Source: an uncultured Eubacteriales bacterium (GTDB lineage Bacteria > Bacillota_A > Clostridia > Christensenellales > Aristaeellaceae). From it: a stretch of 23,484 nucleotides of DNA. Where the stretch lies: the NCBI GenBank assembly GCA_902795555.1, contig CADBLV010000229.1, positions 1-23,484 on the forward strand, given 5' to 3'. This document shows, one piece after another, positions 148 through 23,484 of the stretch; positions within the stretch are counted from its first letter, which is position 1, and every line of letters starts with the position of its first letter. Made by a program: the position numbers and the translations under genes. The notes beneath the pieces were generated by a model. That model was given only the letters and a program-made list of their open reading frames with translations, ran no database searches and had not been told where the DNA came from.

Positions 148-1215
148 ATGAGCAGGTTTTTTTCAGAGAAATACGCGGATCTGGAAGCTTATACGCCGGG
201 CGAACAGCCGAGGAATCGGGAATATATCAAGCTGAACACCAATGAAAACCCTTTTCCGCCTCATCCTTCTGTTACGGAAGCGGTTCGCGGGGAAAGCGCC
301 CGGCTTCAGCTGTATTCCGATCCGGAAAGCCATCTCCTGCGGGAGGCCCTGGCCAGGCAGACGGGTCTTCGGAAAGAGAAGCTGATTGTCACCAACGGCT
401 CTGATGAGGCGCTGTATTTTGCTTTCCTTGCCTTCTGTGACCGGCATACGCCGGCGGTGTTCGCCGATATTACCTACGGGTTTTATCCGGTGTATGCCCA
501 GTTTCAGCAGATTCCCTTCCGGGAGATTCCGCTGAAAGAGGATCTGTGGCTGGATCCGGCGGATTACTATCAGGCAGCGGGCACCGTGTTTATCGCCAAT
601 CCCAACGCCCCCACAGGCATAGCCCTTTCGCGGAAGGAGATTGAGGGGATTCTGGAGCAGAACCCCTATAACGTGGTCGTCGTGGACGAAGCGTATGTGG
701 ATTTCGGGGCGCAGAGCTGTCTGGAACTGATTGCCGAATATGACAATCTGCTGGTGATTCAGACATTCAGCAAGTCCCGATCTCTGGCGGGCGGACGCCT
801 TGGCCTGGCTGCCGGAAACCCCGAACTGATCGCCGATCTGAACATGATGAAGAATTCCATCAACCCTTACAATGTTAATCGTCTGACTGCCGCCGCGGGC
901 GTTGCCTGCCTGGCGGAAGAGGAATACACCCGGCGCAACTGCCGGACGATCTGCGAAAACAGGGAATGGGCGAAAAAGGCACTGAAAAAGCTCGGGTTTG
1001 AAATGACAGACAGCATGGCGAACTTCCTCTTTGTCCGGCATCCGGACATCGACGGGGAAACGCTGTATCAGGAAATGAAAAAACGGAAGATTCTGATCCG
1101 GCACTTCCGCGGCGAGCGGATTCGGGATTACAACCGGATTACGGTCGGGACGAGGGAAGAAATGGAAAAACTGGTTTCCGCGGCGGAAGAGATTCTGCAG
1201 GAGCGGCGTCCGTGA
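148..1215 (+). CDS. hisC: Histidinol-phosphate aminotransferase
   Basis: This is a fold-type I PLP aminotransferase that converts imidazole-acetol phosphate and glutamate to histidinol phosphate in the cytoplasm. The 355-residue length fits the family. Visible landmarks are NTNENPFPPHP near residue 30, the cofactor-binding NPNAPTG near 152, VVDEAYVDF near 176, and TFSKSRSLAGGRLG, whose Lys209 should form the Schiff base. The RBS GAGGAGG around 133-139 sits at normal distance from the ATG. The gene follows hisD by 22 bases and precedes hisB. Its last codons and stop lie inside a 40-bp tandem repeat (1208-1287), so the extreme C-terminus may have been shaped by that repeat. Aromatic aminotransferases are relatives, but the operon context settles the role. 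Confidence 0.96.
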   Translation: MSRFFSEKYADLEAYTPGEQPRNREYIKLNTNENPFPPHPSVTEAVRGESARLQLYSDPESHLLREALARQTGLRKEKLIVTNGSDEALYFAFLAFCDRHTPAVFADITYGFYPVYAQFQQIPFREIPLKEDLWLDPADYYQAAGTVFIANPNAPTGIALSRKEIEGILEQNPYNVVVVDEAYVDFGAQSCLELIAEYDNLLVIQTFSKSRSLAGGRLGLAAGNPELIADLNMMKNSINPYNVNRLTAAAGVACLAEEEYTRRNCRTICENREWAKKALKKLGFEMTDSMANFLFVRHPDIDGETLYQEMKKRKILIRHFRGERIRDYNRITVGTREEMEKLVSAAEEILQERRP

Positions 1216-1287
1216 GCCGGTGAGACGGAAGACGCACGGAACGCTGTGTCCGTGAGCCGTTGATCCGAAGAACGTACGGAACGCGGG
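1208..1287 (+). repeat. Two-copy 40-bp tandem repeat spanning the hisC stop codon
   Basis: Units are 1208-1247 and 1248-1287. Both begin GTCCGTGAGCCG and contain ACGGAACGC near the end; 31 of 40 positions agree. The TGA in the first unit is the hisC stop codon, so the duplication includes the 3' end of the gene. At the junction, CACGGA (1235-1240) can pair with TCCGTG (1249-1254) around an 8-nt loop. There is no T-tract, so this is not a terminator. The hisB ribosome site follows about 20 bases later. Confidence 0.85.
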
Positions 1288-1323
1288 CTGAATGATGTTT
1301 ACGGGAAGGAAAGGATGACAGGC

Positions 1324-20948: not shown

Positions 20949-20988
20949 ATCCGGGAAACAATACGGAATCAAAAAAACGGAGGACTGA

Positions 20989-23313
20989 ATGAGAAACACC
21001 ACCTTCATGGAATTGCCGGTTCTACCCCTGCGCGGGCTGATGATCTTCCCGAACATGGTGCTGCATTTCGATGTGGGCCGACAGAAGTCTATCGGCGCCT
21101 TGGAACAGGGAATGCTGACCGATCAGAAGGTTTTTCTGATTGCGCAAAAGGACGATGACACAGAAGATCCCGGACCGGACGACCTCTGCAAGGTGGGAAC
21201 CGTGGCACAGGTCAAACAGGTGATGAATCTGCCGGGGGAGAATATCCGTGTGCTGGTCGAGGGTGAAAACCGGGGCATCATCAGCCAGGTGCTGTCCACG
21301 GATCCCTTTCTGAAAGCGTCAGTCAGGATTTATAAGGATAAGGTTCCGCGCTCCCCGGATGCGAAAGCGCTGCTGCGAACAGCGCAGGACCTGTTTGAAC
21401 AATATGCCCTCATCTCCCAGCGGGTTAGCCAGGAGACCGTCGAGCTGATCCGGGGCGTTGAATCCCCCGGGGATCTGGCTGATCTGCTGGCCGCGAATAT
21501 CCTTTCGCGCCGGGAAGAGAAGCAGGGGATTCTGGATGAACTGGATCCGATGCGCAGGCTGGAGAAGATCTGCGTCGTTCTTATGCGTGAGACCGATATG
21601 GCCGACACGGAAAAACAGATCCAGGCCAGGATTAAAAAACAGGTTGAAAAAAACCAGAAGGACTACTACCTGCGGGAGCAGATCAAAGCGATTCAAACCG
21701 AGCTGGGCGACCAGGAAGATTCGGAAATCGCGGAGCTTCGCAAGCGGATGGAGGAAACCCCGCTGAACGAGGAGGCCAGGGCCAAGTGCGAAAAGGAACT
21801 GGATCGGATGAGCCGCACGCCTTCCGGATCTCCGGAAGCCGCCCTCAGCCAGACCTATATTGAATGGATTCTGGATCTCCCATGGGGAAAAGAAACGAAA
21901 GATAATCTGGATCTGAACCGTGCCAGAGAGGTGCTGAACCGGGATCACTACGGCATGGAGGAAGTGAAGGAACGGATTATTGAATATCTGGCGGTGCTCA
22001 GGCTGAAAAAGGACATGAAGGGTCCGATTCTGTGCTTTGTGGGCCCTCCGGGCGTCGGAAAAACCAGTATCGTGAAGGCGATCGCCGAGGCGCTGGACCG
22101 GAAGTTTGTTCAGATGAGCCTGGGCGGCGTGCGGGATGAGGCGGAAATTCGGGGACACCGCAGAACCTATATCGGCTCTATTCCGGGACGGATCATTTAC
22201 GGCATGAAGCAGGCGGGAACCGTAAATCCCGTGTTCCTGTTTGACGAAATTGACAAGATGAGCGCGGATTTCAGGGGAAATCCGGCGGCCGCGCTGCTGG
22301 AAGTGCTGGATGCGGAGCAGAACAACGCATTCCGCGATCATTATCTGGAGCTCCCCTTTGATCTGAGCAAGGTTATGTTTATCACCACCGCCAACAGCAT
22401 GGAAACGATTCCCGGACCGCTGCTGGACCGGATGGAATTGATTGAGGTTCCCAGCTATACCGAGGAAGAAAAGCTGCATATTCTCAAGCTCCATCTGATG
22501 CCGAAGCAGATCCTGGAGCACGGGATGAAGCCCGGCGCTCTGAAGGTGGCGGACAGCGTTTACCGGAGCATGATAGAGGGATATACCCGGGAAGCCGGCG
22601 TGCGCACCCTGGAGCGGACCGCAGCGAAAGTGTGCCGGAAAGCGGCGGTTTACATGCTGGATCACAACAAGAAGACCATGACGATCAACGCTGCCAGATT
22701 AACGGAGCTGCTGGGCGCTCCCCGATATATCAGGGAAGGCCTTGAGAAGGAGCCCAGAGTCGGCGTGGTCAACGGGCTGGCCTATACCAGTATCGGTGGA
22801 GAAATGCTGGAGGTCGAATGCACCGCCATGGCCGGGAAAGGCGGCATGAAGCTGACCGGTCAGCTGGGCGATGTGATGAAGGAATCCGCGGAGGCCGCGT
22901 TCAGCTGGGTGCGGGCCCACAGCGGTGAACTGGGACTGGCTGATGATTTTTATAAGGAAATTGATATCCATATCCATGTGCCGGAAGGGGCTGTACCCAA
23001 GGACGGACCCAGCGCCGGCGTGACCATGGTGACGGCCCTGGTCAGCGCCCTGACAGGCAAACCGGTCCGGCAGAACGTGGCCATGACCGGCGAAATCACC
23101 CTGAGGGGACGCGTGCTGCCCATCGGCGGATTGAAAGAGAAGACCCTGGCGGCCTATCGGGCCGGCATCAAAACCCTGGTCATTCCGGAGGAAAACCGGA
23201 AGGATCTGGAGAAGATTCCGGAGGATGTGCTGGCGAGCTTCCGGATTGTCCCGGTCAGGGAGATTCAGGAGGTGCTGGAAACAGCACTGATTCCGGAAAC
23301 GTTAAAAAAGTAA
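20989..23313 (+). CDS. lon: Lon protease (LonA type)
   Basis: A 774-residue ATP-dependent serine protease that degrades misfolded and regulatory proteins. The N-terminal substrate-binding domain (ELPVLPLRGLMIFPNMV) identifies LonA rather than LonB. A coiled-coil region about 200-270 is followed by Walker A GPPGVGKT (about 352-359), Walker B VFLFDEIDKM and the C-terminal protease domain. The catalytic dyad is Ser675 in KDGPSAGVTM and Lys718 in GGLKEK, 43 residues apart as in E. coli. CGGAGG about 8 bases upstream sets the start. The order tig-clpP-clpX-lon is common in Bacillota; an engB-like gene would be expected next. The stop codon begins a tandem repeat that runs to the end of the window. 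Confidence 0.97.
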   Translation: MRNTTFMELPVLPLRGLMIFPNMVLHFDVGRQKSIGALEQGMLTDQKVFLIAQKDDDTEDPGPDDLCKVGTVAQVKQVMNLPGENIRVLVEGENRGIISQVLSTDPFLKASVRIYKDKVPRSPDAKALLRTAQDLFEQYALISQRVSQETVELIRGVESPGDLADLLAANILSRREEKQGILDELDPMRRLEKICVVLMRETDMADTEKQIQARIKKQVEKNQKDYYLREQIKAIQTELGDQEDSEIAELRKRMEETPLNEEARAKCEKELDRMSRTPSGSPEAALSQTYIEWILDLPWGKETKDNLDLNRAREVLNRDHYGMEEVKERIIEYLAVLRLKKDMKGPILCFVGPPGVGKTSIVKAIAEALDRKFVQMSLGGVRDEAEIRGHRRTYIGSIPGRIIYGMKQAGTVNPVFLFDEIDKMSADFRGNPAAALLEVLDAEQNNAFRDHYLELPFDLSKVMFITTANSMETIPGPLLDRMELIEVPSYTEEEKLHILKLHLMPKQILEHGMKPGALKVADSVYRSMIEGYTREAGVRTLERTAAKVCRKAAVYMLDHNKKTMTINAARLTELLGAPRYIREGLEKEPRVGVVNGLAYTSIGGEMLEVECTAMAGKGGMKLTGQLGDVMKESAEAAFSWVRAHSGELGLADDFYKEIDIHIHVPEGAVPKDGPSAGVTMVTALVSALTGKPVRQNVAMTGEITLRGRVLPIGGLKEKTLAAYRAGIKTLVIPEENRKDLEKIPEDVLASFRIVPVREIQEVLETALIPETLKK

Positions 23314-23484
23314 GGGAACATCGCGAAAATGAAAAGCGCGGAGTTCCCAAAGAGTAAGGGGAAACAGCGCGAAAATGAAAAACGCGGAGCTTCCAAAGAG
23401 TAAGGGGAAACAGCGTGGAAATGAAAAGCGCGGAGTTCCCAAAAAGTAAGGGGAAACAGCGTGAAAATGAAAAGCGCGGAGTTC
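23311..23484 (+). repeat. 44-46 bp tandem repeat after lon, at least four copies
   Basis: Units begin at 23311, 23355, 23401 and 23447; the last is cut by the window end. Each starts TAAGGG, and the first TAA is the lon stop codon. Each unit carries complementary ends: in unit 1 GGGAAC (23314-23319) pairs with GTTCCC (23343-23348) and an inner CGCG with CGCG. In units 3 and 4 the inner arm becomes CGTG, which still pairs through a G-T wobble. No T-tract is seen. The array may extend further downstream. Confidence 0.9.

Follow-up and report, generated by a model that had tools for sequence, protein, structure and literature searches.

Several gene junctions in the 23.5 kb stretch of Clostridia-type DNA analysed here (contig CADBLV010000229.1, 23,484 nucleotides (nt), called the window below) have probably grown by short tandem duplications that are frequent in the lineage and filtered by selection. 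The window carries a histidine operon (hisC, hisB, hisH, hisA, hisF and hisIE) with its neighbours, including a PHP-domain gene, a VWA gene, a GGDEF/EAL gene, purC, tig, clpP, clpX and lon. Six of the 17 same-strand junctions carry two to four diverged copies of a unit of 32-46 nt. The corresponding junctions in relatives are usually shorter and single-copy, with a mixed picture at hisC-hisB. The arrays, and a hairpin beside one of them, are listed below; the name php2 is our own label and is not backed by Pfam.

1208..1284, plus strand: hisC-hisB junction array, two copies with a period of 40 nt, the first opening 7 nt ahead of the final base of hisC's stop codon (1213-1215).
3232..3390, plus strand: hisA-hisF junction array, about four degenerate copies with a period of 32-36 nt, beginning within the 3' end of hisA (stop codon 3251-3253).
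7821..7914, plus strand: vwa-php2 spacer array, two good copies and a partial one with a period of 35 nt, entirely within the spacer.
7930..7962, plus strand: intrinsic-terminator-like hairpin with a T run, intact 3' of the vwa-php2 array, read directly from the sequence.
8758..8930, plus strand: php2-ggdef junction array, about four copies with a period of 38-39 nt, plus a last partial copy.
13469..13542, minus strand: bmp-mpe spacer array, two degenerate copies at a shift of 32-37 nt, 13 nt past the bmp stop codon.
23305..23484, plus strand: lon-engB junction array, four copies with a period of 46 nt, continuing past the window end.

An earlier note on this DNA had reported six spacers with two to four copies of such units, and this was borne out. 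Tandem Repeats Finder (TRF) reported five arrays, at 1208-1284, 3293-3362, 7848-7914, 8763-8904 and 23305-23484. The sixth, on the minus strand at 13469-13542, was found by self-alignment, TRF having reported nothing at 13473-13536. The best shifted self-match of each array exceeded all 200 dinucleotide shuffles of its own region; for example, the score was 24 at hisC-hisB against a shuffle maximum of 16, and 18 at bmp-mpe against 14. In the other 13 junction rows the best shifted self-match did not exceed all 200 shuffles. Shuffled junctions reached a score of at least 16 in only one of 2820 trials. Self-comparison with blastn missed four of the six arrays, and a purpose-written gapped self-alignment was used in its place. 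In its main alignments the copies are 72-91% alike, i.e., they diverge by about 9-28%, and they are contiguous, with no unique spacers in between. At hisA-hisF it aligns positions -21..73 with 11..109, counted from the last base of the upstream stop codon, while the tail to about 3390 was judged by eye. The unit differs in sequence from locus to locus, as had been claimed, and none of the 20 direct-repeat families listed (of at least 60) joins two different arrays within the window. Two other claims need narrowing. Firstly, the arrays do not occupy most longer spacers but half of them: 11 spacers are at least 60 nt long, or 12 with lon, and arrays are present in six of the 12. Secondly, periods of 35, 38, 40 and 46 nt are indeed not multiples of three, but 36 and 39 also occur.

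Placement relative to the upstream stop codon is less uniform than had been proposed. On the same scale, where 0 is the last base of that stop, the first copy starts at -7 in hisC-hisB, -21 in hisA-hisF, -12 in php2-ggdef and -8 in lon, so that four of the six arrays include the stop. The remaining two lie wholly downstream of it, vwa-php2 starting at about +38 to +48 and bmp-mpe at +13.

The density of such repeats was compared with that in relatives. By Lon sequence, the nearest genomes are G013, G014, G019 and G032 (85-86% identity, the best among 308 family genomes being 86%), while the nearest named records for HisF are the rumen and goat Clostridia metagenome-assembled genomes (MAGs) RUG095, RUG111 and RGIG2654 (91-92% identity). 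A junction was scored as a match at a self-match score of at least 16, the same for window and relatives, and only same-strand junctions with a spacer of at most 300 nt or an overlap of at most 40 nt were counted, none of them at stretch ends. The ungapped scan matched five of 16 window junctions; lon, taken from the shuffle test, brings this to six of 17. Matches in relatives were 0/100 in G013, 3/138 in G014, 5/108 in G019, 1/42 in G032, 3/143 in G002, 1/116 in G001 and 1/17 in G003 with G004, and 4/277 in 20 further genomes around lon. The contrast is thus 6/17 against 18/941 in the sampled family relatives, a total that is generous to the relatives since it includes some intragenic coding repeats (four so tagged). 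Fisher's test gives p 1.3e-6 for this contrast, and p 1.3e-4 when the ungapped-scan sets are restricted to spacers of at least 40 nt (5/11 against 14/322), both values being optimistic because the window was picked for its noticed repeats. For loci from further afield, taken in two sets of 38, the counts were 6/406 and 3/412. Mid-gene controls, taken from the central 220 nt of genes of at least 700 nt, matched in 19 of 1298 cases, and the period was divisible by three in 18 of these 19, compared with 13 of 28 junction matches.

Orthologous junctions were compared where gene order permitted; genes were called with a purpose-made codon-score caller, and the starts of orthologues are possibly off. 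The clearest case is hisA-hisF, which is a 4-nt overlap in 32 of 33 distinct relative genomes and spans 173 nt in the window. These genomes come from two sets, one with 7/7 at -4 and one with 29/30 at -4 and a single +12; four genomes occur in both sets, and L224 was left out. The php2-ggdef junction measures 21-29 nt in four relatives, and vwa-php2 67-98 nt in three. In one of the latter, L172, the 98-nt spacer contains a terminator hairpin resembling the one after the window array. Of five relatives compared at bmp-mpe, two have a distance of 9-10 nt and three (L143, L148 and L158) are visibly mis-called. Downstream of lon, a single junction free of repeats is present in G013 and G014, where 13 and 11 nt, respectively, separate stop from start. 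The hisC-hisB junction ranges from -4 to 79 nt across seven relatives, with 24-25 nt for G013 and G032 and repeats of their own in G019 (71 nt) and L003 (73 nt).

What is repeated can be read most directly at the end of lon. The unit comprises the last codons of lon and its stop, a GGGG run resembling a Shine-Dalgarno (SD) sequence, and the first codons of the downstream gene, so that each copy contains the lon stop, an SD and a start region. The downstream gene is of the engB GTPase type (Pfam MMR_HSR1 in L118), and we take it to be engB. Copy 4 is identical to the single lon-engB junction of G013 in 33 of 42 columns spanning stop, SD and start, and by eye it translates as M-K-M-K-S-A-E-F, compared with (TTG)EIKSAEF in G013. 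Copies 3 and 4 score 49 and 47 against G013 while copies 1 and 2 score 36 each; G032 and G014 likewise give the last two copies the higher ranks. Where copies 3 and 4 read GTG, the first two read GCG. At php2-ggdef, the last partial copy includes the region from which the GGDEF/EAL gene starts at 8931, with its SD and GTG. The first copy, beginning at the conserved Q-W codons of php2, aligns with this last copy with a score of 22, equalled by two of 1000 shuffles, although the regions were picked by the author after viewing.

Similar events are found in relatives. In G019, stop-crossing copies of gene 3' ends are present at four of six aligned junctions (hisC-hisB, hisB-hisH, hisF-hisIE and hisIE-php1); at the other two, hisH-hisA and vwa-pfk, no copies were found at the threshold used. 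In hisB-hisH of G019 the second copy reaches 18 nt past the start of hisH. It includes the ATG of hisH, for which the first copy reads ACG. Judged from the sequence, this ACG is a superseded start that decayed from ATG. A unit spanning the end of one gene and the start of the next is thus seen at lon-engB, php2-ggdef and G019 hisB-hisH. One weaker case, with a period of 46 nt and three copies by eye, is present in G014. The idea of local duplication that takes in 3' gene ends is supported: gene-end copies past the stop are clear in G019 and weaker in G014, and the orthologous junctions are mostly shorter and repeat-free. The idea that the repeats are seeded at the stop codon needs correcting, since at two junctions of the window the repeated segment takes in everything from the stop to the next SD and start, and not the 3' end alone. 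Outside the family, L062, from a MAG labelled Lachnospiraceae, shows near 11758 an array of period 34 that begins at a stop codon and finishes 10 nt short of the following start, so events of this type may not be confined to the family.

These observations fit a model in which tight operon junctions are enlarged by tandem copying of segments of about 32-54 nt. A segment from within the end of gene A to at or past the start of gene B could be duplicated at any length, since gene A would still stop in the first copy and gene B would still start from the SD and start codon of the last. A duplication inside a gene would shift the frame or add residues, and would mostly be purged by selection. Where genes are densely packed, duplications that break the frame would be harmless only across a junction or within a spacer. 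The mid-gene controls agree with this, their periods being nearly always multiples of three, unlike those at junctions. The arrays would therefore look anchored at stop codons because of survivorship rather than seeding at stops. Superseded copies would then drift, losing start codons and diverging from each other. The copying step may be replication slippage or template switching, and the duplication rate is presumably raised in this lineage, with arrays that are close to neutral. The lon unit, being partly palindromic, could also have promoted its own duplication. The expectation for placement was calculated for harmless duplications of 30-55 nt, with ancestral junction lengths taken by hand from relatives (13 and 11 nt for lon). 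The probability that the first copy starts inside gene A is then 1.00 for hisA-hisF, 0.96-1.00 for lon, 0.80 for php2-ggdef, 0.77 for hisC-hisB and 0.33 for vwa-php2, and the model covers the observed start of five of the six arrays.

Besides the way in which the window was chosen, several observations weigh against this explanation. The model fails for bmp-mpe, where it predicts a start inside the gene with a probability of 0.98-1.00 and the array is observed at +13. The best segment of the ungapped scan crosses the stop in only one of the five scored window matches (lon being outside the scan), because the stop-proximal copies are more diverged or gapped. The start of gene B is not demonstrable in the unit at four of the six junctions (hisC-hisB, hisA-hisF, vwa-php2 and bmp-mpe), and at lon the engB gene itself lies beyond the window end. 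The sequence at the end of lon in G019 gives no alignment to the window unit (scores 14-17). Tightness of hisC-hisB is not general among relatives, the junction being 71-79 nt in three of seven. Both hisF-hisIE and hisIE-php1 are longer in the window than in G013 and G032, yet have no significant repeat. Finally, the clear cases in G019 all lie in the his operon (L175), and about 100 other sampled junctions of that genome include none of the type. A uniform neutral process does not account for this clustered distribution.

An alternative explanation, suggested also by the earlier note, is that the arrays are retained for a function in mRNA, as hairpins that make transcripts more stable or adjust how the following gene is translated. 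The lon array folds strongly (z -5.71, matched by none of 200 shuffles), with a stem in all four copies that is weakest in copy 4, which is cut by the window end. Two more arrays are marginal (hisC-hisB, z -2.04; bmp-mpe, z -2.02), but hisA-hisF, vwa-php2 and php2-ggdef show no folding advantage over shuffles (z 0.19, 0.73 and 1.72), and Rfam gives no match at the gathering threshold. Single units gave z values of -0.90, -0.42, -0.03, 1.35, 1.13 and 0.49, with -2.35 for the lon unit. In addition, any partly self-complementary unit in tandem would be expected to fold strongly between copies. Strong folding is thus a property of one array in six, and retention through mRNA structure is not borne out for the set. 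As a general explanation it is improbable, although at lon selection on structure may have acted, which also counts against pure near-neutrality there.

A second alternative is that expansion was itself selected, to uncouple the translation of overlapping genes by giving each downstream gene a start region of its own. Most relatives compared have overlapping or abutting genes where hisA-hisF is 173 nt in the window and hisB-hisH is 52 nt in G019, and the four cases clustered in the G019 his operon hint at a local cause. However, of the six junctions expanded in the window, hisA-hisF alone is regularly an overlap in relatives, and the window retains overlaps at hisB-hisH, hisH-hisA, purC-nagPA and clpP-clpX. 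Selection of this kind appears slightly less probable still than a function in mRNA.

It is very unlikely that the arrays are dispersed or mobile elements inserted into spacers. Heptamer-like arrays with a period of 18-21 nt do occur at stop codons in G001, G002 and G003, and a 17-mer is common to two other window spacers. Nevertheless, the six units differ in sequence, three of them match local gene ends or junctions, the copies have no unique spacers between them, and no Rfam family matches. Three specific candidates can be discarded. A clustered regularly interspaced short palindromic repeat (CRISPR) array is ruled out by the contiguous and diverged copies. Repetitive extragenic palindromes (REP), bacterial interspersed mosaic elements (BIME) or another dispersed element are ruled out within the window, as no listed repeat family links the arrays and Rfam is without a match. 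Short tandemly repeated repetitive (STRR) heptamers of the TAACTGA type are ruled out by units of 32-46 nt that are different at each locus. Lastly, repeats are classic trouble spots for assembly, but an assembly artefact is scarcely credible when copies differ by about 9-28% in self-alignment and similar diverged-copy events are present in the independent assemblies of G019 and G014.

Junction growth by tandem duplication resembles several known processes. In the tandem duplication-random loss of mitochondrial gene junctions, a duplication spans a boundary and the superseded parts decay. There, whole genes are copied and their order changes, while in the window tens of bases are copied and the order is unchanged. 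Intergenic tandem repeats of planctomycetes are described as head-to-tail copies ascribed to polymerase slippage (PMC9426551). Like those slippage repeats and other variable-number tandem repeats, the window arrays are head-to-tail, intergenic and beyond chance; unlike them, the units are locus-specific and, where readable, equal to a gene junction that is single-copy in relatives. TAACTGA heptamer direct repeats populate spacers of Beggiatoaceae, Cyanobacteria and Bacteroidetes and sometimes overlap stops; a coding constraint is invoked for their placement, and in one genome they lie mostly just upstream of start codons (PMC4679880). That family shares one 7-nt unit, while the window units are 32-46 nt long, locus-specific and gene-derived. 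The evolution of same-strand junction length is also the topic of PMC3887535, in which unidirectional overlaps are reported to arise via change or loss of a start or stop codon; in the window, overlaps and short spacers have probably been opened by duplication. No description of bacterial spacer growth via duplication of a whole stop-to-start junction was found in the open-licence literature by titles and opening abstracts.

Duplication across junctions would give compact bacterial operons a concrete route to gain spacer DNA, counter to the deletion bias that is usual in bacterial genomes. It also illustrates how selection on flanking genes can make a random process look aimed at stop codons. 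Decayed starts, together with single-copy junctions in relatives, form an ordered record of the steps, which makes the idea directly testable in any complete genome of the lineage. Arrays may well extend through the genome of the window species. More tentatively, and with well under even likelihood, an unusually active duplication process may be opening operon junctions genome-wide, so that overlapping genes coupled in translation come apart and acquire a series of spare stop-SD-start modules, as a general route of spacer birth. If so, junction duplication would be a general route of operon evolution, caught in progress.

The heptamer-like arrays of relatives have units of the AATTCAG, GAGTTAA and TTAGTGG types and are found in L099 (G002), L111 (G001), L003 (7996-8042), L097 and L202. 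The stop codon is overlapped in L099, L111 and L003; the array begins right after the stop in L202 and reaches the next start in L097. They resemble the heptamer repeats of other phyla and are unlike the window arrays.

Pfam agrees with the gene names used for the window, with only general matches for hisC (aminotransferase) and hisH (glutamine amidotransferase); php2 (7988-8770) and the gene at 11761 have no Pfam match at 1e-6. A tRNA scan of the window was empty, and megablast of a 701-nt piece (3000-3700) against plasmids gave no match. The 17-mer common to two spacers, GAGGCATATTTKGTTCG, lies at 4192-4208 and 17347-17363, with 0.10 chance matches expected. In both places it lies within a longer stretch missing from the relatives compared, and it has no exact match in 240 loci. 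A 10-nt direct repeat, ACAGAGGAGG, bounds the hisF-hisIE stretch on either side, a pattern that resembles insertion of a small element. By likeness to relatives, hisIE probably starts at 4296 (ATGATTCATCCC) rather than 4254; with this start the hisF-hisIE spacer is 110 nt, compared with 11-18 nt in G013, G014 and G032. The motif GATCBGAAGAACG, picked out by eye and allowing at most two mismatches, has 12 matches in the window against three expected, two of them exact and in spacers (1262 and 5010) and ten inexact and in genes.

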